From Candidatus Poseidoniaceae archaeon (GTDB lineage: Archaea; Thermoplasmatota; Poseidoniia; Poseidoniales; Poseidoniaceae): a stretch of DNA of 64,000 nucleotides. Below, one piece after another: positions 1,178 to 33,587 of the stretch; position 1 is the first letter of the stretch; each line of letters starts with the position of its first letter. The notes beneath the pieces were generated by a model, which saw only the letters and a list, made by a program, of their open reading frames with translations, made no database searches and had not been told where the DNA came from. The stretch is from NCBI GenBank assembly GCA_938030705.1, contig CALHIR010000047.1:1-64000 (forward strand). The letters are read 5' to 3'. Both the position numbers and the translations under genes were made by a program.

Positions 1178-1214
1178 ACACAAGGGGCCCCTTTTAGTTC
1201 GTATACGACATAAA
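1178..1214. repeat. Palindrome-containing intergenic segment
   Basis: Directly after the preceding stop codon lies AAGGGGCCCCTTTT, a near-perfect palindrome. A closely similar motif (AAAGGGGACCCCTT) occurs at 3963-3976, next to the start of the DUF2130 gene. It leads into the longer repeat at 1215-1327. It could be a bidirectional terminator between two convergent genes or part of the repeat unit. Confidence 0.5.
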
Positions 1215-1327
1215 GGGTAGCGAGTGTACTGGGAGACTGAACACCCATTATACTCATCCATAATGTCTCGAGGGGTTTGACAGAACCCTTGCGATTTCAT
1301 GGAAATGATATGTCGGTTGTCTGTATC
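1215..1327 (+). repeat. Dispersed structured repeat, copy 1
   Basis: 113 nt that align without gaps to the reverse complement of 5408-5520, with about 14 mismatches by hand count, and share the first third and the hairpin plan with a shorter copy at 2633-2707. The common start is GCGAGTGTAC, then a GGACTGAAT-like block, a variable inverted repeat and AGGGGTTTGACAGAACCCTT, which can fold. It lies between the 3' ends of two convergent genes and, relative to the minus-strand gene ending at 1370, is downstream and reversed, as in the other two copies. Confidence 0.85.
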
Positions 1328-1369
1328 AGCCCATGAGAGAGGGTGTGAATTTTTAGCCTACACAAGGAA

Positions 1370-1963
1370 TCATGATTTTTTCCGATAAAGCAAGACAAGT
1401 GGAACGCCAAAAAGAAACGTTATAATCATAATATCAGAATATTGAAGGATTTGATCAGACAATGATAATTTGCTTCCGTAAGAGGTATAACTTTCTAAAG
1501 ACCAATCATCTCCATCCGTCGGTTGATGATCTCCGTCAACAACATTGCCTGCTATGGTGAACCGTACATCTTCATCACTGTAAGGAGCTTTCCATTCGAC
1601 GTCCCAAGTACGTTGATTCGCTCCAGAGTGATCATGCGTAATTTCACCGTTTTCGGTGACGTATGTTGCCGAATCTTTGGAGGAAAAATCTCCATCGGAG
1701 GCTTTCAGATTGAATCCTCCCCTGTGACCTTGTTCTGCTTCTTGAGGGCCACCAGAAAGAATGATAGTTAATTCATATATTTCTCCATGTGAATAGTTAT
1801 CTGGTATTCCGATAATTTCAACATAGGTCTCAACACCAGGATTCGATCCATGGCAGTTGCAACCCGTTTCAGAATATCCCTCAATTCCATGTGATGAACC
1901 AAATACCTCCATGGATGGAGCAATCAGAAGACTCGATAACAATATGACAAGTAATAGACGCAA
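1370..1963 (-). CDS. Choice-of-anchor V domain membrane protein
   Basis: Probable start is TTG at 1963, 7 nt after a GGAGAG motif and beyond the stop of the upstream gene, giving 197 residues; an ATG at 2026 would overlap that gene by 47 nt. After a signal-like segment comes a GCNCHG motif, then a beta domain with GGFNL, GEITHDHSG and AGNVVDGDH blocks, the pattern I know from choice-of-anchor V (reelin-like) domains. A final transmembrane helix ends in R-K-K. The mature domain is rich in His, and the C-x-C-H motif is one residue short of a c-type haem site. It is the second gene of a pair with the 174-residue membrane protein. Confidence 0.75.
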   Translation of the reverse strand: MRLLLVILLSSLLIAPSMEVFGSSHGIEGYSETGCNCHGSNPGVETYVEIIGIPDNYSHGEIYELTIILSGGPQEAEQGHRGGFNLKASDGDFSSKDSATYVTENGEITHDHSGANQRTWDVEWKAPYSDEDVRFTIAGNVVDGDHQPTDGDDWSLESYTSYGSKLSLSDQILQYSDIMIITFLFGVPLVLLYRKKS

Positions 1964-1979
1964 TGTAATCTCTCCAATA

Positions 1980-2504
1980 CTATTCTTTCTCTGAATGAAT
2001 ACTTTTGCGATTCTTAATGAGGCCAATAATCAATCCAATCTCAGAAATTTTAGCAGCGATTCCGAGGTAATCTTCCAAAATATAGTGGATGTCATGGTTT
2101 GAAACAAAATATGCAATAAACATGAATAGAGATACTGATGCTAAAGAATATCGAGCAATTCTTTCTCTCGAATCATTTATTTTTATCAGCATTGGTGAGA
2201 CGATAATGGCTAACACTCCACCTCCTCCAAGAAGTAAGGTTCGATCATTAAGTCCCAATAGAATGTGCACTAAACCAGTGAAGAATGCAAGTGAAAAAAT
2301 GGAAGGAGTAAATACAGAGAATTTCTCAGAATATTTTGTTCGCAATATTAAGAACACAACTGCAGAAAAAGAAACTGAAATCAATAAAATTTGCATATTG
2401 CTCAAGACAGAAGAGGCTTCCGCTTCACCATGCGCAGAGGCAACTGGTACAGAATGAACAAAAATTGTCAACGAAAATAAAGAAATCATCATTCTTTTGT
2501 TCAT
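1980..2504 (-). CDS. Multi-pass membrane protein with predicted N-terminal His after cleavage
   Basis: 174 residues: a signal peptide (residues 1-25, ending V-A-S-A) followed by HGEAEA, then about five hydrophobic helices and a charged tail. Cleavage after A-S-A would leave an N-terminal His, a feature of some copper-binding proteins; this is only suggestive. More His residues sit near membrane borders (HILLG, HDIHY). It is upstream of, and probably co-transcribed with, the choice-of-anchor V gene. No family is recognised. Confidence 0.75.
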   Translation of the reverse strand: MNKRMMISLFSLTIFVHSVPVASAHGEAEASSVLSNMQILLISVSFSAVVFLILRTKYSEKFSVFTPSIFSLAFFTGLVHILLGLNDRTLLLGGGGVLAIIVSPMLIKINDSRERIARYSLASVSLFMFIAYFVSNHDIHYILEDYLGIAAKISEIGLIIGLIKNRKSIHSEKE

Positions 2505-2632
2505 CTCAAACCCCTCGGAGTTATGACCTTGTTCAAAATAAACTCAGGTTATAACATAACTATCACCCGATAATACTTAACTACTTTCAATTTATTACTT
2601 CTCAATACCCACTGTACAGGCGTGTCATGAGA
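2505..2632. other. AT-rich intergenic region
   Basis: Between the start of the 174-residue membrane protein (reading left) and the repeat at 2633. It is strongly AT-rich and should hold the promoter of the leftward gene pair (AT-rich runs around 2540-2600). I see no open reading frame or RNA gene in it. Confidence 0.5.
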
Positions 2633-2707
2633 GGGTAGCGAGTGTACTGGTGGACTGAATCCCCTTTGTATCGGAAAATGAAATGCAAAGGGGTTTCGGA
2701 TGAACCC
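2633..2707 (+). repeat. Dispersed structured repeat, copy 2 (short form)
   Basis: Begins with the shared GGGTAGCGAGTGTACTGG block and GGACTGAAT, then an inverted repeat CCCCTTTG ... CAAAGGGG with a loop of about 18 nt, then TTCGGATGAACCC, equivalent to the GACAGAACCC end of the long copies. The hairpin arms differ in sequence from copies 1 and 3 while pairing is kept, which suggests structure is conserved. It ends 6 nt from the stop of the DUF2130 gene, downstream of it and in opposite orientation. Confidence 0.8.
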
Positions 2708-2713
2708 ATAGCA

Positions 2714-3904
2714 TCAAAGTGATTCGTCTTCCGGTGCCGGTAAAAAGTTTTGATCACCCATCTCGATTTGTTGAATTGCAGGCAGTTCTGTGGCAATTTG
2801 TTTGACTGTGCCAAAGAATTCGCTAAATCCTCTCAATCTGGCTTCTGCTGCTTTCCTTCGTGAGCTCCAATTACGCTCCATTGAACGTCGTTCCTTTTCA
2901 ATAATATCCAATTCTGCAATGTAACTATCATCAATTAATCGCATTGCATTAGCAAATTCTTGACCTGCCATATAATTGTACAATAATTCCATTTTACTGC
3001 CCTTTCCTTCTTGACTCTTCACAGCGGTTTCTGCCCGAATCAAACCACCTCTTAATGCAGTTGCGAGACCCTGAACCTCATTGAATTTGCATACCCAAAC
3101 ATTCTCTTCGATCATTGTCATACCTGAGACTCCAGAAGGCATGGCTTCTGAAACTATTACTGAAATATGGCCATTTGCCCTTACAGTATCCTCCTTAACC
3201 TTGGATATCCATTTGTTAGACCATTGTTTTGTGCGCTTAACCTCCCAAATTATGAGGCCAGCTTCTATTCCAGAACCAAATCTTACAGATTGAATTACAT
3301 CTGCCCCCTTTGTTCCTTTGGGAACTTCGCTGATTATATCTGATTGGAATGCCTGACCTACAAGATCTTCAATGAAAATTTCCCCACCCTCGCCTTGTGT
3401 TTGCACAGAGCCTTGAGCTGCTTTTCTAAGAGCCTCTTTATGCAGTTCATTTGTCTGCCTTTCTCTGTCCAAAAGTTCATTGATTTTCATTTGTAATTGC
3501 AGATTCTCCTGCTGAGATGCTGCGTTTTTTTGTTTAGCAAGTTCTTCTGCCATCACTTCGTATTCTTCCAGTGCAGCTTTTTTTGCTTCGAGAGCAGCCT
3601 TTTCTCTTTCCACCTCAATCCTTTTTTCATTGGTTTCGATTTGATGTTTTAGTTTTTGGAGTTCTAGCTCTTTCTTGTCGTCTTCATCTTCTTTGGACAA
3701 CAACATTTTTTCTTTCTCAGATAATTGTGCTTTGAATTTCTGCACCTCTTTGAGATGTGAGCTTTCCATATCCTTTTTGATTTTTGATTCAATTAGTTTT
3801 CTTTCATCAGCCATTCCTTCTTTCAGGTGATGAGAAATCTGTTCATTAATATCAATTATTTTGTTGCAATCGGGACATTCTATCTGCAAATTACCTAACA
3901 CCAT
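2714..3904 (-). CDS. DUF2130 domain protein with long coiled coil
   Basis: 396 residues from ATG 3904; a longer frame exists upstream but its extra codons come from repeat DNA. The N-terminus carries a single CPDC knuckle (IECPDCNKII). A charged coiled coil of roughly 150 residues follows, then the DUF2130 core with KGTKGADVIQ and IIWEVKRTKQWSNKW. The spacing of Asp and E-V-K resembles a PD-(D/E)XK nuclease core, which is my inference. The cellular role of the family is not established. A TATA-like CATATAG lies about 45 nt before the start. Confidence 0.85.
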   Translation of the reverse strand: MVLGNLQIECPDCNKIIDINEQISHHLKEGMADERKLIESKIKKDMESSHLKEVQKFKAQLSEKEKMLLSKEDEDDKKELELQKLKHQIETNEKRIEVEREKAALEAKKAALEEYEVMAEELAKQKNAASQQENLQLQMKINELLDRERQTNELHKEALRKAAQGSVQTQGEGGEIFIEDLVGQAFQSDIISEVPKGTKGADVIQSVRFGSGIEAGLIIWEVKRTKQWSNKWISKVKEDTVRANGHISVIVSEAMPSGVSGMTMIEENVWVCKFNEVQGLATALRGGLIRAETAVKSQEGKGSKMELLYNYMAGQEFANAMRLIDDSYIAELDIIEKERRSMERNWSSRRKAAEARLRGFSEFFGTVKQIATELPAIQQIEMGDQNFLPAPEDESL

Positions 3905-3962
3905 GCTCTTCAACTTCCTACAATCAAACTCGAAATCCACACTATATGAACCCATCCAATAC

Positions 3963-4010
3963 AAAGGGGACCCCTTCGCACACCCACTCATAACAAGGGT
4001 ACGGACGCGT
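3963..4010 (+). repeat. Hairpin repeat, second family, copy A
   Basis: AAAGGGGACCCCTT runs into CCCCTTCGCACACC, a spacer, then AAGGGTACGGAC. The CCCTT and AAGGG arms can pair. The same plan, CCCTTCGTATT ... AAGGGTAATCGGAC, occurs at 5541-5580. It sits in the 5' region of the DUF2130 gene, divergent from the gene at 4166. Confidence 0.6.
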
Positions 4011-4134
4011 GAGTTTCTCATCAGAGGGAGTACAGAGGGGTTATTTCTGCTTGTACTGATCTCTCAAACTGGATTTTATTTCGCTAAAAGTTGAATCTCA
4101 ACAAAATGGGAAATGCCTTTGAGTATAACCCACC

Positions 4135-4143
4135 AATATTATA
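4135..4143 (+). promoter_or_regulatory. TATA box of the gene at 4166
   Basis: AATATTATA is centred about 27 nt before the ATG at 4166, and no Shine-Dalgarno motif is present. This fits archaeal leaderless transcription with the start site at or near the start codon. Confidence 0.55.
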
Positions 4144-4165
4144 CCAAAGCGGCTAATGCACTTCT

Positions 4166-5365
4166 ATGGCTGGTAATCATGAAGGTTCACACCTCATCAC
4201 AAGTTTTCCTGTAGTTTTTTTTGGTTCTCTTATTCTTGCTGCAGCTGTTGGGTATTTCCTTCATAGGAAACTGAATGGACTGCCTAAAATCGGTGAGAAA
4301 TTCTATGATCCTATCATTCTTATTCTCGGTATGTGGTGTCTTATTGGTCTTCTTATCGACGCGTTTGCTCACATCGCTGGTTCGGTAGATGACACCTTCT
4401 TCACACCATGGCATGCTGTTTGGTATTCAGGTTCTGCTGCATATGGGACGTACATGATCTACGCGATTATGCCTGAAGGGGGCATGCGACAACTTGTTTC
4501 AGAACCTTTCAAGACACTAAGAGGGATTGAAAATCAACACAAACCTGGTGTTTATGGGATCATTATCTTTGCTGTTTCTGGGTTTGGCGACCTTATTTGG
4601 CACGAGACATTGGGCGTTGAAGAAAACACCGACATCCTTCTTTCTCCAACACATATCGGGTTGTTCATTGGATTGATGATGTCGGTCAGCGCCCCCGTCT
4701 GGTCAGCTTGGGCAAATGCAAAGTCAGGCCGGGATGGAATCCGATCTCAGGCTTTGATCGTGTTTGGTCTTGGAGCAGCATGGACCGTTGCGCTTCTAAT
4801 GATTCGTTATGCCAACCTATGGATTGCTCCACTGCAAAGTTATTGTTATTCAGCAACAGTCGTTTTCTGTGAGAATGAAAACTACACCACTGCTCTTGAA
4901 ATTGGATTACAATCACTCTTTTTACAGGCTGCTCTCACCTCTACTGTGGTTGCATTGTTTTTGAAACGATGGGAACCTGAACGGGGTTCAATGTTTCTTT
5001 TGTTTATGTTCCATGCAGTGGGAGTGTGGGTCTATTCCGAATTTGATTCTAGACTACTTTGGATGGGTGTTTCCCTTGCTCTACTAGCGGAAATCGGAGT
5101 GTTGGCTTATCAAAAAATGGGGCCATCTGTTTACATCTCTCTCGTTGCCGCAAGTCAAGTCGTTGTTCTTCTGTTGTTTTCCCTTTCAGACGCAGCCCGT
5201 CTTTCAGGCACCCGATACTGGATTGAAGGTGTCAATATTCATCTGATTCCATTTGGATGGAGTATTCATTCAACGTTTGGAGCCATCGTTGTCTGTGCAC
5301 TGATTGGTTGGATTACGAGTATTGTTGCATTTTCTCCTGAGATCCCTGAGACAGATGATCATTGA
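4166..5365 (+). CDS. Polytopic membrane protein with conserved-looking intramembrane His residues
   Basis: 399 residues with about nine or ten hydrophobic helices and few soluble segments. His and acidic residues occur in or beside helices in motif-like blocks: DAFAHIAG, FFTPWHAVWYSG, GDLIWHETLG and LLSPTHIGLF. Such His-rich membrane blocks would fit metal or proton handling, but I cannot name a function. The start is an ATG about 27 nt after a TATA box. It is followed by the third copy of the long repeat, again placed 3' and reversed. Confidence 0.8.
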   Translation: MAGNHEGSHLITSFPVVFFGSLILAAAVGYFLHRKLNGLPKIGEKFYDPIILILGMWCLIGLLIDAFAHIAGSVDDTFFTPWHAVWYSGSAAYGTYMIYAIMPEGGMRQLVSEPFKTLRGIENQHKPGVYGIIIFAVSGFGDLIWHETLGVEENTDILLSPTHIGLFIGLMMSVSAPVWSAWANAKSGRDGIRSQALIVFGLGAAWTVALLMIRYANLWIAPLQSYCYSATVVFCENENYTTALEIGLQSLFLQAALTSTVVALFLKRWEPERGSMFLLFMFHAVGVWVYSEFDSRLLWMGVSLALLAEIGVLAYQKMGPSVYISLVAASQVVVLLLFSLSDAARLSGTRYWIEGVNIHLIPFGWSIHSTFGAIVVCALIGWITSIVAFSPEIPETDDH

Positions 5366-5407
5366 ACTTGTTTGCCATCGTGTTCTTTGCACTGTTACTA
5401 ATCCTCC

Positions 5408-5520
5408 GATGCAAACAACCGACATATCATTTCCACGAAATCGCAAGGGTTCTGTCAAACCCCTCAGGACATTATGGGGGAGTACAATGGGTATTCAGTC
5501 CACCGGTACACTCGCTAGCG
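5408..5520 (-). repeat. Dispersed structured repeat, copy 3
   Basis: Reverse-complement copy of 1215-1327, same length and no gaps, about 14 differences by hand count. On the gene-sense strand it reads GGGTTCTGTCAAACCCCT, a foldable block, and ends in TACACTCGCTA. It begins about 40 nt after the stop codon of the membrane protein and faces against it, as do copies 1 and 2 relative to their minus-strand neighbours. Copies 1 and 3 form long inverted repeats around the 1.3-5.4 kb gene block. Confidence 0.85.
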
Positions 5521-5540
5521 TTCGCAGCGACCCACTGCAA

Positions 5541-5600
5541 GCCCTTCGTATTCTCATATGGTTGCTAAGGGTAATCGGACAAGCCCTTCGCATTCATCCC
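5541..5600 (+). repeat. Hairpin repeat, second family, copy B with tandem partial copy
   Basis: GCCCTTCGTATTCTCAT, a short spacer, then CTAAGGGTAATCGGAC matches the layout at 3971-4005. Immediately after, AAGCCCTTCGCATTCAT (5581-5597) repeats the first arm. The stretch fills the gap between two plus-strand genes and directly abuts copy 3 of the long repeat. No coding capacity is evident. Confidence 0.6.
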
Positions 5601-5659
5601 ATTGAGTATACTGATACAATGTACCAATTGGATTATTTGTCATTGTATTAGCTATTATC

Positions 5660-6529
5660 ATGGCCGACAAGAAAAACAACATCTTGTCAGAGTCAGACAA
5701 GCAGAGAAACGCTTGGAAAAAAGCAGAGAAATTGATAACTCAAAATAAACCAGAAGATGCTCTATTGATCCTTAGAGAACTGGACGAGAGTGGTTCTCAC
5801 CAAACCACACTTCGACTTGCAGGCAAAGCAACTCATAAAATCGCTCAACAAACAAATGACAAATCCGTCTATCGCAAGGCCGCTTCGCTTCTTCGAGATT
5901 CAGTAAATATGAATCCAAAAGAAAAGAAATCCAGTAGAGCATACAATGACTTGCTCAATGAAATGCAAGAGAAGAAGATTAGGAGGCGTTCGTTTAGGAA
6001 AGTTGGTTACGCAATTGCAGGAATAGCAACTTTACTTTTGATTGTGGGAACTATTGGTATTACGCTTGAACCCGCCTCTCGTGAAGCTACCATGTCGCCC
6101 CCTTCGTTCACACAGGGCACCGTATTTTTCGGCCCTGAACCTCTCCGAGGCAATCCAATTCCTTTCCTGCTTTCAGCAGAAGTAACGGTTAACTGGGACA
6201 GAGACGATATTTTCCTTGTGATCGCAGATGAAAATAAGAAAGAAGAATGCGACAGTATTCCACCAATTGAAAGAATTTTATCGGAAAGTCAAACCTGTAA
6301 AGCAGGAGACAGCGAGTTTGAGGTAGTCGGTGAAAATGGTACTACTGGGCTTACATGGGCTCCTGAGGATGGTGAGTACTATGTTGGCATTGGTACTTTA
6401 GGAGAGAATAATCCAGCCGGTGAGGGATTCAAATTGGATGTTACCATTGAATTGAATCTTTCAGCGAGCGGTTATGTGCTGACATTATTGTTTGGTGTAA
6501 TCGGTGTTCAACTAGTAAGAAAGGATTGA
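5660..6529 (+). CDS. Membrane protein with TPR-like cytoplasmic N-terminus
   Basis: 289 residues. Residues 1-110 are charged and helical, with a repeat-like pattern (PEDALLILRELDESG) suggestive of a tetratricopeptide pair. A transmembrane helix lies near 116-136, then an extracellular domain of about 130 residues containing two Cys that could form a disulphide, and a second helix near 270-285 just before the C-terminus. It is the last gene of the AT-rich region. Function unknown; the layout suggests a scaffold or sensor, which is inference. Confidence 0.75.
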   Translation: MADKKNNILSESDKQRNAWKKAEKLITQNKPEDALLILRELDESGSHQTTLRLAGKATHKIAQQTNDKSVYRKAASLLRDSVNMNPKEKKSSRAYNDLLNEMQEKKIRRRSFRKVGYAIAGIATLLLIVGTIGITLEPASREATMSPPSFTQGTVFFGPEPLRGNPIPFLLSAEVTVNWDRDDIFLVIADENKKEECDSIPPIERILSESQTCKAGDSEFEVVGENGTTGLTWAPEDGEYYVGIGTLGENNPAGEGFKLDVTIELNLSASGYVLTLLFGVIGVQLVRKD

Positions 6530-6660
6530 TTATCAATCTCTTCGACATCACGATTATTCAGGAATACGAACCGCTTCCCTCTGCATCTATGCACAAACCC
6601 ACTGATTCGTTTTGGACCAAGTTGTGGCCGCACCAAGACCGGTTCCATCAATGAATGGAA
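6530..6660. other. Intergenic region at the composition boundary
   Basis: Between two convergent genes. Base composition changes here from AT-rich on the left to GC-richer on the right, where it stays to the end of the window. I see no gene, no direct repeat and no tRNA-like attachment site. Confidence 0.45.
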
Positions 6661-6933
6661 TCAGATGAGGCCCATGGAGAGGACTTCGATTTCGCCAACG
6701 CCGTGAATCGCCGACATCTTGGCTTCGAAGGCATCAGCAAGGCCCTCGCCGTCGTTCATCTTGACATGAACTTGAACGAATTTGAGACCGAAGGCCAGTG
6801 GCTTTGTCTCAATGGCTTGAATATCGTAATCGTCGTTACGGAGGGTCGCAATCGTTTCTGCGATAGCGTCCGTGTCAACGTCTTGAAGATCGGAATCAGG
6901 GTTCACCTTGTACGTCATTACTACCATGCCCAT
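6661..6933 (-). CDS. ef1b: Translation elongation factor aEF1 beta
   Basis: 90 residues, the normal size for the archaeal protein, which corresponds to the C-terminal exchange domain of eukaryotic eEF1B. It promotes GDP/GTP exchange on EF1A. The start MGMVVMTYKVNPDS, the central GLKFVQVHVKMND strand and the terminal GVGEIEVLSMGLI match the family. It begins 9 nt after a small zinc-finger gene, a pairing common in euryarchaea, and is probably the last gene of an operon starting with rlmE. Confidence 0.93.
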   Translation of the reverse strand: MGMVVMTYKVNPDSDLQDVDTDAIAETIATLRNDDYDIQAIETKPLAFGLKFVQVHVKMNDGEGLADAFEAKMSAIHGVGEIEVLSMGLI

Positions 6934-24403: not shown

Positions 24404-27328
24404 ATGCTTCTTGACCCACCACCCCCTCCACCAACCATGGACAGCGAGGCGTCAGCCCCCGAAGCCTTGCGCCATGCTCTCGACCGAGCCGCTGCGTCGT
24501 TGAAAGAGACCTTCAACCAGCGATTGAGCGGACTGTACGGCACCGTCCTTGCCTCGCCTGGAACCGTATTGGCGTTGTTCGTCGTCATCAGTGCGGTCTT
24601 TGCCCAGCAGGGTATGGCCTTTCAAGAGCAAATCGACGGCGACGTGGAAATCTTCCTGCCCGACGGGGCATCGTCAACCGATTTACTGCTCGAAGTGCGT
24701 ACGGAATGGTCCACCGATCTTGCGGTGATTTACATCACGACGCCGAACGCCAACAACCCCAACGATACCACGAACATCACGGATGAGGTGGTTCTCAACG
24801 AAATCAGTTGGCTTGAGGGAGATGACCGTAACATCGGAGGGGATTCGACCAGCCGTGGTATGGATTTCGACAAAGACGACCACGGGCGCAACGATGGTGT
24901 CTTGTGGATCATCTCTCCTGCTCAAGTGATCAAAGAGATTAACTCAGCTGACGGGCGATTCAATAATTCCCTTTGCGTGCACGGAGTAAACAACCGCTTA
25001 CCTCTCGCCCTTGATTGCGAATTATTGCCCGAGGGCGGAGAATACGCCATCCCAAGCCAAGACAGAATTGACCAAATCATCGAAGAATCCAACGGCGCTT
25101 TTGACACCCTCATCAAGGATACAAACGACATGGATCCCACCGTCGACAGTGATGGTGATGGAAACTACACAAACGACATGGACGGTGATGGGATTTGGGA
25201 CACCACGGCCATCATCGTCGGCATGCATCACAACCCCTCCGTCACGGGCGACTGGGAGGACTTCTCTGCGCTCTTGAACCACTTTCAAGACATCATCGAT
25301 GCCCGCCCATCGGAGTATCGAAACACGGAGTCCATCACGGTGACGGGCCTTACCAAGGTCTTGGAAGACATCTCCGACGCCATTTACGAAGATTTGTTGA
25401 TGATTCTGCCTTGGTCCGTCCTGTTCACCGTCTTGGTCATCACCGCCCTTCACCGTTCAGCCAAGGTCGTCGTCATCACGGGCACACCCATTCTGATGGC
25501 CCTTGCCATCACGTTCGGTTCATCGGTCGTCATGGACATTACCTTGACGCCGATGATCGTAGCGACCTTCCCGATACTGATTGGGTTAGGGGTGGATTAT
25601 GCCCTGCACATGGTCAACAGGATTGAGGAAGTCAGACGAAAAGAAATCGATAAAGCGCACGATGAGAACGAGCGGCGCAGAAAACGGGGAGAGCGTGAGC
25701 TGACCGTACCCGACCTATGGGATCTCGAATTTTACAAATCATGCGTGATGGAGATGACCCGCTCGACGGGCGTGGCAGTTTTCCTCTCCGCCATGACCAC
25801 CATTGTCGGTTTTTCAGTCCTCATTGCGCCGATGATCGTCCCCATTGCTCCAATACGCTCTGTCGGCATCACCTTGGTCATCGGCATCTCATCCACACTG
25901 ATTTTGAGTATCGTGTTGGTCCCAACCCTCGCGTGGATGTTGAAGTTCAATAAACGTAGCAATCCTGGTGTATGGAAGAACATCGGGCAGGCTCCCATCA
26001 AGGGATTTCTCATCGTCATCCTCCTTGCGGGTTCAGTTACGGCTTATGGCGTGGCCAATATGGATGAGTTGAACAAACCAATTACCGGTTCTTCCGAAGC
26101 ACCCGACGGCATTGAATCCCTGAATTCTCTCGCTGAGTACTCGCGCCAATTCAGCAGTGGACAAACATCCCTGTTCATTTACGACGCCTCTGAGCGACCG
26201 AATAACAACAATACGCAGCACGTCCGAGATTTACCCGTTCTCGATTCGATGGACGCCATGGAGTCCAAAATTGACCAGGTCGATGAAACATCAACGACCA
26301 GCATCATCACCTTCCTCAAAGCGGTCCCCGCCACCATCACGTTAGCCGATGGCATCACGCTTGGCGATGGTTCGTTGTGGGACCTGCTCCATAACCCCTG
26401 CTGGGAAAGCGAGGACCTCCTTGACCCGGATTGTGCAGGATGGACCCTCGTGCCGGTGAGTGAGCGAGAAGCGCTGCGAAAAGACATGGTGAACGTGGCC
26501 TTTGACACGCTCTCGTCAGAGGTTCGTTCCATGTTGATGAACGAAGACAACACGAAAGCCATCGTTTACGTGACCCAACCCTACATGAATTTGAACGTAG
26601 CAGGAGAACTTCGTGATGAAATTGATGACATCCTTGGCGAGGGACCAAAGCTCTTGAACACCCAAACTTCACTCCTTACCGGGGGTCTTCCCGTTTCCTT
26701 AGACATCAACGAAGGCATTCACGATACGCAAAGCACGACCACCCTGCTGACGCTTCTGGTCCTGACCGTTTTGTTGATGTTCGTTTTCCGTTCGGTCCGC
26801 CTTGGCATCTACACCATGATTCCCGTTGCAGTGGTCATCCTGTGGCAGCCGCTCTTGATGCAAAGCGGGGACGTCAACGTGAACATCTTCACGGCGATGA
26901 TAGGCACGATCGTTTTCGGGATCGGGGTGGACGATTCCATTCACGTGATGCACCGTATACGAGAGGAAGGAGAATCACCCCACGGCATGGCATCAGCTAT
27001 TGAAGAGACTGGTCAAACCATTTTCGAGACGACCATCACGACCGTCTCGGGGATTGCCGCAGGTTTCCTTGCCGCCTTCCCTGGTCTCGAGAATTTCTTC
27101 ATGCTGATGTGTTTGCTCATCATCTTCGCTTTCATCACCAGCGCCTTTCTTCTCCCCGCCATTTTCACGGCAGAACACGTCACACGAGCGAAAATCAAGG
27201 GCCATCCACCGTGGATTGATTTCGGAGAAGGCGTGGCCGTCAGTGATTCATCCGTGATGAAACCCATGGACGCAGTCATCCCAGGAAGCTTATCGCTGTA
27301 CGGTGAAGGTGGAGGGAGTAGGGAGTAA
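24404..27328 (+). CDS. RND-superfamily exporter (MMPL/SSD type)
   Basis: 974 residues. One helix near 45-65, an extracellular domain, a cluster of helices (about 325-560) containing GLGVDYALHMVNR, a second extracellular domain, and a second helix cluster (about 785-930) containing GIGVDDSIHVMHR. The two halves are a duplication, as in RND and sterol-sensing-domain proteins, with the proton-relay Asp in each GxGVD motif. The first extracellular domain includes two D-x-D-G-D-G loops near residue 248. The substrate is unknown. The last codons overlap the RNase P RNA gene on the other strand. Confidence 0.9.
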   Translation: MLLDPPPPPPTMDSEASAPEALRHALDRAAASLKETFNQRLSGLYGTVLASPGTVLALFVVISAVFAQQGMAFQEQIDGDVEIFLPDGASSTDLLLEVRTEWSTDLAVIYITTPNANNPNDTTNITDEVVLNEISWLEGDDRNIGGDSTSRGMDFDKDDHGRNDGVLWIISPAQVIKEINSADGRFNNSLCVHGVNNRLPLALDCELLPEGGEYAIPSQDRIDQIIEESNGAFDTLIKDTNDMDPTVDSDGDGNYTNDMDGDGIWDTTAIIVGMHHNPSVTGDWEDFSALLNHFQDIIDARPSEYRNTESITVTGLTKVLEDISDAIYEDLLMILPWSVLFTVLVITALHRSAKVVVITGTPILMALAITFGSSVVMDITLTPMIVATFPILIGLGVDYALHMVNRIEEVRRKEIDKAHDENERRRKRGERELTVPDLWDLEFYKSCVMEMTRSTGVAVFLSAMTTIVGFSVLIAPMIVPIAPIRSVGITLVIGISSTLILSIVLVPTLAWMLKFNKRSNPGVWKNIGQAPIKGFLIVILLAGSVTAYGVANMDELNKPITGSSEAPDGIESLNSLAEYSRQFSSGQTSLFIYDASERPNNNNTQHVRDLPVLDSMDAMESKIDQVDETSTTSIITFLKAVPATITLADGITLGDGSLWDLLHNPCWESEDLLDPDCAGWTLVPVSEREALRKDMVNVAFDTLSSEVRSMLMNEDNTKAIVYVTQPYMNLNVAGELRDEIDDILGEGPKLLNTQTSLLTGGLPVSLDINEGIHDTQSTTTLLTLLVLTVLLMFVFRSVRLGIYTMIPVAVVILWQPLLMQSGDVNVNIFTAMIGTIVFGIGVDDSIHVMHRIREEGESPHGMASAIEETGQTIFETTITTVSGIAAGFLAAFPGLENFFMLMCLLIIFAFITSAFLLPAIFTAEHVTRAKIKGHPPWIDFGEGVAVSDSSVMKPMDAVIPGSLSLYGEGGGSRE

Positions 27329-27613
27329 GCCCCTTTCTGTTCCCTTTCGGTGACCGCATTCAACTGTGCATCCTACCTGTCCCTCATCGTGCCGAGTCAA
27401 CGGGACGGTTTGGACTTGCTCCGGCGGGGTAGCTCGTCTCATCGACAACAAGGCAACCTCGGTCTTTCAACGTCATTGTACACACCTTGCATCGTTCGTT
27501 TCTGCAGCTTGAACCCAACCATTTCTGCTTGCTTCCTTCTGGTAGCCGCCTGCACTTTGGAGAGGGGACTTTCCTCAGAGTCGAACTCTGTCAGCGGTCC
27601 TCCTACTCCCTCC
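27311..27613 (-). ncRNA. rnpB: RNase P RNA, archaeal
   Basis: About 303 nt on the minus strand. The ends pair as P1: GGAGGGAGTAGG at 27613-27602 with CCTACTCCCTCC at 27322-27311, a perfect 12-bp helix. The universal CR-I GAGGAAAGTCC is present, preceded by a CAGAG/CTCTG hairpin, then CGGCTACCAGAAGG, CCCCGCCGGAGCAAG (CR-IV region) and ACAGAAAGGGGCTTAC (CR-V, pairing with CR-I as P4). It is the catalytic RNA that trims tRNA 5' ends. The 3' end overlaps the last 18 nt of the RND exporter gene on the opposite strand. It lies 52 nt after the large surface-protein gene, with only a weak TATA-like sequence near 27638. Confidence 0.95.
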
Positions 27614-33510: not shown

Positions 33511-33587
33511 GGGCCTGTAGCTTAGTCAGGTAGAGCGACGGACTCTTAATCCGTCGGTCGCGGGTTCGAACCCCGTCAGGCCCGCCA
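33511..33587 (+). tRNA. tRNA-Lys (anticodon CTT)
   Basis: The acceptor pair GGGCCTG/CAGGCCC, D arm with AGTCAGGTAGAG, anticodon stem ACGGA/TCCGT with loop CTCTTAA (anticodon CTT at positions 34-36), and T arm CGGGTTCGAACCCCG fold as a standard cloverleaf. The mature part is 33511-33584 and the CCA end is encoded (33585-33587). No intron. Confidence 0.96.

Follow-up and report, generated by a model that had tools for sequence, protein, structure and literature searches.

Repeats at gene ends in Poseidoniales archaea as probable half-sites of mobile gene cassettes, with a short serine recombinase as their candidate enzyme

A family of repeats in a marine archaeal genome probably represents recombination half-sites that end mobile gene cassettes, which would probably be moved by a short serine recombinase. 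The repeats were noticed in a 64,000-nucleotide stretch of DNA (hereafter the window) from a Candidatus Poseidoniaceae archaeon (GenBank assembly GCA_938030705.1, contig CALHIR010000047.1, positions 1 to 64,000 of the forward strand). The Poseidoniales (Marine Group II), to which it belongs, abound in surface ocean waters and have, to our knowledge, not been cultured. Comparison of related loci revealed a conserved TA core at which homology breaks, and near-identical units in different genera. The repeats also stand before recombinase genes, and repeat family and recombinase vary together. From these patterns we infer recombination itself, the action of the enzyme on these sites, serine-integrase chemistry, a circular intermediate and action in trans. 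Below, G numbers denote genomes (G000 being that of the window), L numbers the loci compared and C numbers contigs.

Repeat copies in the window

We consider with good confidence that each copy is the long end, or "head", of a cassette, about 110 nt in length and mostly beginning with TA-GCG or TA-GGC. A preliminary description of the window listed three related copies, and their kinship was borne out by pairwise alignment, by BLAST within the genome and by a sequence-only profile (R1) made from 29 heads. Copies 1 and 3 form an ungapped inverted pair of 115 nt that is 88% complementary, with about 14 differences (1213-1327 and 5408-5522), in agreement with the gapless 113 nt and roughly 14 differences described earlier; copies 1 and 2 share a 39-nt match (85%), and copies 2 and 3 one of 35 nt (91%). 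When copy 1 was searched against its own genome, copy 3 was recovered with an E-value of 6.8e-36 and copy 2 with 1.1e-5. Together with the 12 heads that the profile found in this genome, these values indicate that the repeat is not due to chance.

Two further copies were missing from the earlier list. The fourth, at 5516-5616 (+), was matched by the profile at 5511-5616 (63 bits) and has TA 5516-5517 in common with copy 3, so that the two heads stand head to head. The fifth is partial, at 6586-6620 (-), with 31-35 nt at 91-97% identity to two other heads. The cores read AAAGGG-TA-GCGAGTG (head 1), AGAGGG-TA-GCGAGTG (head 2) and ACTCGC-TA-GCGTTCG (shared by heads 3 and 4), and a headless core at 4000-4001 reads AAGGG-TA-CGGACGCG. 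Among the 29 aligned heads, the T of the core is present in 28 and the A in all.

Homology between loci mostly ends at or near the core

In whole-locus alignments, similarity begins at the first bases of the head and continues into the neighbouring gene, and the other side differs. We counted the breakpoints for 124 heads, taking pairs in register (offset within 6 nt) with at least 250 nt of alignment inside the head and a start no further in than +60. Fifty-three pairs shared a head and at least 250 nt of cargo; many of them are not independent, and mostly 400 nt of outer flank was offered. In 51 of these pairs the outer limit of homology lay no more than 28 nt outside the TA, and in the remaining two homology starts inside the TA, at +8 and +45. 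The count leaves out four in-register alignments starting at +155 or beyond, three of them between recombinase loci, and 465 out-of-register alignments (360 fell short of 250 nt, 27 lay within a single locus, 16 contained a further head and 62 were of other kinds). Forty of these 62 were viewed and were largely protein-family repeats or recombinase genes at other distances; one of the forty links the inner side of a head with the outer side of a second one.

Several units are shared nearly intact between genomes. For example, L070 (genus g1) and L118 (genus g11) share a cassette encoding an aldo/keto reductase and an HxlR-type regulator, with 98.1% identity across the 1814 nt from one TA to the other and with unrelated flanks; past the tail TA there is another head in L118 and another tail in L070. 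This cassette, whole or in part, occurs in G004, G021, G023, G029, G039 and G142, and in the L045 copy the contig ends at the TA. Likewise, cassette 1 of the window matches L058 of G028 at 99.6% over 812 nt, from the TA of head 1 onward, and the EF-1B region is 76% identical between the two species. Many heads were seen by eye within about 300 nt of contig ends (C41 and C60 of G000 and many other metagenome-assembled contigs), and such cassettes therefore probably break short-read assemblies.

Tails and joints

The cassette end opposite the head is a short tail of type T1 (ATACCC...CACGCGTCGG-TA) or T2 (GGGNCCCC...AAGGG-TA). A TAG core was located in 107 of 111 heads, and the outside of these was called by simple regular expressions, which miss some, as T2 in 17 cases, T1 in 18 and another head in 14. 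The last bases before the TA on the outer side were mostly C/G-A/C-A/G-A/T-G/C-G-G (n = 93, with the 14 head-head joints excluded).

A given tail end may adjoin a head in one genome while, at the same TA, it adjoins a second tail in another; this was seen in L039/L108, L046/G290, L046/G039, L050/G290, L107/L109, L112/L039 and L118/L070. Among 28 distinct pairs with an outer flank shared to within 45 nt of the core, 15 end exactly there (30 rows in the underlying listing, 17 of them exact, including two reciprocal ones). In G065 and G287, one chromosomal flank carries different heads at the same TA: BLAST homology (85%) begins 76 nt from the core, and 21 of the first 25 nt match by eye. On either strand, the sequence outside the L110 island is TGCAACGG-TA, which implies a palindromic target, and the outer flanks of the L041 island imply the target TTGNATGGG-TA-CCCATNCAA. 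Heads occur in both orientations, with short same-strand runs in L038, L124 and L192, and some islands have inverted heads at both ends. The head-flanked island L109:11406-16566 carries TSP3 and beta-propeller-like repeat proteins with a weak PGF-CTERM match and is apparently frameshifted; its large protein, once considered as a recombinase, is one of the beta-propeller-like proteins. A head in L121 (6331-6438) begins about 20 nt behind a tRNA-Leu gene. The idea that a motif in the head guides it to a matching flank was not supported on inspection by eye.

Distribution of heads

With profile R1, heads were detected in 134 of the 145 genomes from the family to which the window belongs and in 53 of 99 from the sister family, both within the Poseidoniales. 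In a sample of 116 genomes of the phylum, heads were present in 20 of 24 members of the order, in 1 of 3 other members of the class and in none of the 89 genomes sampled outside the class (for 75 of the 89, kinship was taken from the order of the list). The head outside the order lies at G319:C15:12733-12843 (E = 5.3e-13). As the first 25-37 candidates per genome were scored, the numbers of heads per genome (at least 12 in the window's own and at least 24 in G110) are minima.

A short serine recombinase behind heads

Scans of cargo proteins (49 and 38) yielded one serine recombinase, of 261 amino acids (L041:6556-7341, in G065). Its catalytic domain spans residues 14-167 (PF00239, E = 8.1e-32), it covers positions 3-52 of the 102 of PF07508, about half of the Recombinase domain, and it has no cysteine in its 261 residues and hence no zinc ribbon. 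The gene belongs to a 4.3-kb island with inverted heads at its flanks (L041:6306-10616), where it is accompanied by a restriction-modification-like cargo, a C5 DNA methylase and an EcoRII-C-like protein. The resolvase motif residues (Y, R, S, Q; R-V-S; D-R..R) are invariant in the eight recombinases aligned, and the Y, R, S, Q and D-R..R residues are those which we take to be catalytic. The nearest NCBIfam models, CcrB, XisF and CcrC, all score far below their cut-offs (CcrB, E = 8.6e-22 and 77.5 bits against 900; CcrC, 45 against 900), as do CcrA (28.8 against 700) and IS607 (23.8 against 110). By sequence, its relatives among solved structures are resolvases, invertases and the TP901-1 integrase domain.

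Ten recombinase genes with at least 57% identity that reach the N-terminus all have a head in the same orientation upstream, at 57, 84, 93, 147, 156, 185, 188, 194, 371 and 619 nt; the most distant head is a weak match (E = 4.8e-4), and the nine others lie within 371 nt. Remnants show the same neighbourhood: a 33-codon 5' recombinase remnant lies 161 nt behind a head in G029:C28, a fragment with 49% identity lies 320 nt behind a head in G141 with an inverted head on its other side, and in G036 a C-terminal fragment lies at a partial head. Apart from one pair at 91%, the ten recombinases are 56-75% identical, and their heads are clearly different. By eye, cassettes without a recombinase bear the same heads as recombinase subfamilies: copies 1 and 3 of the window resemble the heads of the G065 and G290:C45 recombinases, copy 4 that of G091, and L046:8786 that of G101. 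The preliminary description had proposed looking for an IntI-like or other recombinase in genomes with the repeat, and the enzyme behind heads is indeed a recombinase, of the short serine kind and not IntI-like.

In a scan of GTDB contigs, 13 of 18 loci have at least 50% identity, and all 13 are labelled Poseidoniales, Poseidoniaceae, Poseidonia or 'Euryarchaeota archaeon'; five bacterial loci, with 26-32% identity, make up the rest. Two of the 13 come from G290 (JAOMOG), whose records carry a plate-like name and no 'MAG' tag; it is probably a single-cell genome, which would speak against binning chimaeras. A scan of IMG/VR with the single recombinase gave four pattern matches and no relative, and a scan with an alignment gave at least 543 relatives, of which the best 80 are at 29-46% identity.

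It is improbable that another enzyme acts at the TA, such as XerA, as in pdif modules, or a DDE transposase with TA duplication, the serine recombinase being mere cargo. This alternative gains from the window's genome, which has a XerA-like PF00589 protein and no PF00239 protein (the two families searched), and from the rarity of recombinase relatives, present in 31 of 292 genomes of the order, against the head counts of the two families given above. Passive cargo, however, varies behind one head, and these recombinase genes lie inside the head in one orientation, with the head family changing with the recombinase. The PF00589 protein, the only one in its genome, is by our reading of its sequence and neighbours the chromosomal XerA, and we rejected it as the enzyme, the nearest listed head on its contig being about 24 kb away. 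No DDE transposase appeared among the 25 protein families listed for each cargo sample (of 47 and 38 families), a smaller scope than the whole genome. Tc1/mariner ends are inverted repeats, whereas head and tail differ apart from the TA; yet some islands do have inverted heads at both ends.

Placement and structure of the heads

The orientation of neighbouring genes was counted for 111 heads in 59 loci with a simple purpose-made gene caller, taking the nearest gene within 400 nt; weak, partial or overlapping profile matches (20 of 82 and 27 of 76) were dropped beforehand. On the cargo side, 59 of 92 genes have their 3' end at the head and 33 their 5' end; on the outer side the figures are 63 and 36 of 99. 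The excess of 3' ends has a binomial p of about 0.009 on each side against a crude null of 0.5. A 3' share above one half on both sides suggests that heads favour gene 3' ends without being tied to them. The claim that the repeat always lies 3' of a gene and faces it is thus true of the three copies first listed, but not of copy 4, where the gene at 5660-6529 starts, nor of the 33 cargo-side 5' ends.

The covariation test used 29 heads and two helices, with 17 pairs proposed from these same sequences and 500 shuffles. The score was 0.256 against 0.160 +/- 0.017 in shuffles, 0.039-0.105 when the partners were slid, and 72.7% of cells paired against 65.8%; none of the 500 shuffles reached either value. 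Further pair types were not above shuffles (25 against 23.2, reached by 152 of 500). The earlier remark that the arms vary yet still pair thus finds support in score and paired cells, though not in the number of pair types. Because the head motif changes with the recombinase, we favour the view that these inverted repeats are binding motifs co-evolving with the enzyme; they may also be read as a folded strand.

That heads are attC sites, recombined as folded single strands by an IntI-type tyrosine integrase, is very unlikely, given that the only PF00589 protein of the window's genome is the distant one taken for XerA, that heads lie both ways round with head-head and tail-tail joints, and that the enzyme adjoining them is a serine recombinase. 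The attC box consensus has its crossover at G/TT, whereas the core here is TA; judged by this core and not by an attC model, R' and R'' boxes with G/TT are absent. No IntI was found in the window's own genome, to which the search was confined, and beyond the short same-strand runs no tandem array in one orientation was seen. Gene-plus-site units with exact junctions and variable self-complementary arms with covariation do fit an integron, and archaeal integrons have been published (PMC9668308); 6718 archaeal genomes were screened in that study, in whose main text neither 'Thermoplasmatota' nor 'Poseidon' occurs. The gene-plus-element unit likened to attC cassettes in the preliminary description therefore stands in that the same TA-to-TA ends recur across genera, and falls as regards attC and IntI.

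Equally hard to maintain is the suggestion that heads are terminators or conserved 3' RNA elements which ordinary homologous recombination has spread among gene ends: the 3' excess on the cargo side and the covarying hairpins agree with it, but a third of heads lie at gene 5' ends, recombinase genes point away from the head, a single dinucleotide is where homology breaks gather, and Rfam gives no match at heads at gathering score.

Observations against mobile cassettes

Several observations weigh against mobile cassettes moved by this enzyme, and we would like to gather them here. Forty-eight shorter alignments cross the core, from beyond -28 to beyond +20, which can be ascribed to the conservation of tails and opposite heads themselves. 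The outer flanks of 58 of the 107 heads fit neither T1, T2 nor another head (the expressions miss some), and 13 of the 28 pairs with shared outer flanks do not end exactly at the core. The homology of cassette 1 with L058 ends at 2028, within coding sequence and with no TA. No clean empty target, with both flanks in one relative and no insert, was obtained in searches at EF1B, where the flanks are plastic, and at L110, which has few homologues; a search at L041 met the flank joined to a different head. Recombinase carriers are far fewer than head carriers, and the window's genome (assembly 90% complete) has no PF00239 protein and no recombinase relative, so that mobilisation there would be in trans. 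Within about 1.5 kb on either side of 30 recombinase loci, a head was found in 11 and none in 19; eighteen of the latter show 27-47% identity, and the nineteenth (L178) is a C-terminal remnant with 69%.

As to the same regions, the homology of window 1370-2028 with L058:8039-8697 stops, by eye, in a C-terminal stretch common to two otherwise different upstream genes. In L126, which lacks a head, the flank of L065 is present to within 12 nt of the core (one flank compared). In longer stretches, heads lie about 1.5-1.6 kb upstream of the distant recombinases of G065:C20 (50%) and G230 (42%), and a facing head lies 4.6 kb downstream of that of G125. The more distant serine recombinases of G212, G236, G080 and G198 (40-47% identity), with no head within 1.5 kb, may use other sites.

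Proposed mechanism and implications

A cassette would consist of TA, a head (about 110 nt with several inverted repeats), one or more genes, a tail (about 30-37 nt) and TA. The enzyme, of about 260 amino acids with an N-terminal resolvase domain and the first half of a Recombinase domain, would lie inside the head in autonomous cassettes, and cassettes lacking it, such as those in the genome of the window, would depend on an enzyme supplied in trans. It would cut both strands at the central TA and then swap halves. The TA being palindromic, we propose that orientation is uncontrolled and that any two halves can be joined: head-tail, head-head, tail-tail, or a half with a chromosomal site ending roughly CARAGGG-TA. 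The kinds of joint seen match this expectation: heads meet tails, other heads or a chromosomal half-site, and tails meet tails. By analogy, the head could be the attP-like half and the tail or target the attB-like half; it bears on this assignment that the enzyme is without the zinc-ribbon part, which tells the two sites apart in phage integrases. If a circle with a head-head joint entered a tail-tail site, the product would be tail-TA-head ... head-TA-tail.

A cassette system in nearly all sampled genomes of one family would provide a concrete mechanism for gaining and shuffling accessory genes; the cargo includes a restriction-modification-like pair, redox enzymes, regulators and repeat proteins. 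It would also serve as a marker of flexible genes and would be a likely reason why assemblies break where these sites occur. With short serine recombinases, numerous natural variants of their sites and a core that does not fix orientation, recombinase-site co-evolution would become testable.

Features of the window

The features in and beside the repeats are collected in Table 1. The same head as head 2 recurs in the window's own genome with a different left flank (G000:C60, L037), and the tail-to-tail joint was read by comparison with such joints in L070 and L109. Because the simple gene caller starts the DUF2130 gene at 3904, the open reading frame beyond that position may be non-coding. The only Rfam matches in the window at gathering score are an archaeal RNase P RNA at 27314-27610 (-) and a tRNA at 33511-33584 (+).

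Table 1. Features at the repeat-bearing end of the window
Feature	Position	Strand	Basis
Short outer half-site, T2 type, GGGGCCCC...AAAGGG, left of core 1	1182-1217	+	Sequence; T2 by regular expression
Head 1, type A, from TA core 1218-1219	1218-1327	+	Profile, alignment
Cassette 1 cargo, two overlapping reversed genes (1370-2026, 1980-2504)	1370-2504	-	No Pfam match
Short tail, T1 type, ATACCCACTGTACAGG...GAGAGGG	2605-2635	+	Sequence; T1 by regular expression
Head 2, CCCCTTTGTA...TGCAAAGGGG family, TA core 2636-2637	2636-2732	+	Profile
Cargo gene, DUF2130 (PF09903, E = 3.6e-44)	2714-4021	-	Pfam search
Tail-to-tail joint: T2 half 3963-3999, TA 4000-4001, reversed T1 half 4002-4033	3963-4033	.	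Limits by eye
Cassette 3 cargo gene, 399 aa	4166-5365	+	No Pfam match
Head 3, type A, TA core 5516-5517	5408-5517	-	Profile, alignment
Head 4, G091 recombinase head family, head to head with head 3	5516-5616	+	Profile, comparison
Gene read away from head 4, 289 aa	5660-6529	+	No Pfam match
Head-interior remnant, right edge	6586-6620	-	E = 2.7e-8 against L045, 9.3e-8 against L070
Core gene aEF-1B (EF1_GNE), beyond the head remnant	6661-6933		Pfam search

Comparison with known systems

A literature search, limited to top matches and with subscription journals mostly outside it, brought up archaeal integrons, Charybdis elements and SCC/ECC papers but no description of a serine-recombinase cassette system in archaea. 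Charybdis elements in Poseidoniales, considered as a source, are described as able to carry integrases (PMC12324425). IS607 resembles the present system in that a small serine recombinase moves DNA without target duplication; IS607 serine transposases have their DNA-binding domain at the N-terminus (PMC6188088), whereas here the catalytic domain is N-terminal, with the Recombinase domain after it, and the enzyme does not belong to IS607.

The large serine integrases of phages share two kinds of half-site around a central dinucleotide and hybrid sites after exchange. Serine recombinases cut both strands at the central dinucleotide, which alone sets the orientation for integrases (Ghosh et al., cited in PMC3783163), and the large ones have a full recombinase domain, a four-cysteine zinc ribbon and a coiled coil (PMC3783163). 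The present enzyme has the N-terminal resolvase domain but not the full recombinase domain, zinc ribbon or coiled coil; the dinucleotide is palindromic, and the half-sites are scattered at gene ends.

The staphylococcal cassette chromosome (SCC) elements, with the recombinases CcrA, CcrB and CcrC, are likewise serine-recombinase cassettes, and the best NCBIfam match is to CcrB. SCC cassettes can stack in tandem. Here, the recombinase has 261 amino acids against a model of 542 positions, the cassettes are about 0.5-5 kb by eye with one or a few genes, no fixed rlmH-like target is present, and the hosts are archaea; with CcrA, CcrB and CcrC scores all under their cut-offs, the enzyme is not a Ccr nor the system an SCC.

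There is also a likeness to integrons and CALIN arrays: cassettes hold a single gene or a few and bear a structured site at one end, arrays occur, many sites have no recombinase close by, and the site arms are variable but self-complementary. Here, in contrast, there are a serine recombinase, a TA core, both orientations, head-head and tail-tail joints and several dispersed chromosomal sites; no single platform was seen, and the recombinase is itself one cassette. The system works like an integron, yet the linked enzyme is of another class. We put forward, tentatively and at somewhat less than even chances, that integron-type gene capture has arisen here a second time and independently, as a cassette system that spans Poseidoniales genomes and is free of orientation. 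In it, the recombinase would be one travelling cassette among many, ordinary genes would mostly have attP-like heads at their 3' ends and attB-like tails at their 5' ends, recombination could join any two TA cores, and a new gene beside a chromosomal CARAGGG-TA site could be taken up. Recognition of the covarying inverted repeats in the heads may then depend on their structure, or on recombinase subfamilies each co-evolving with its own motif.

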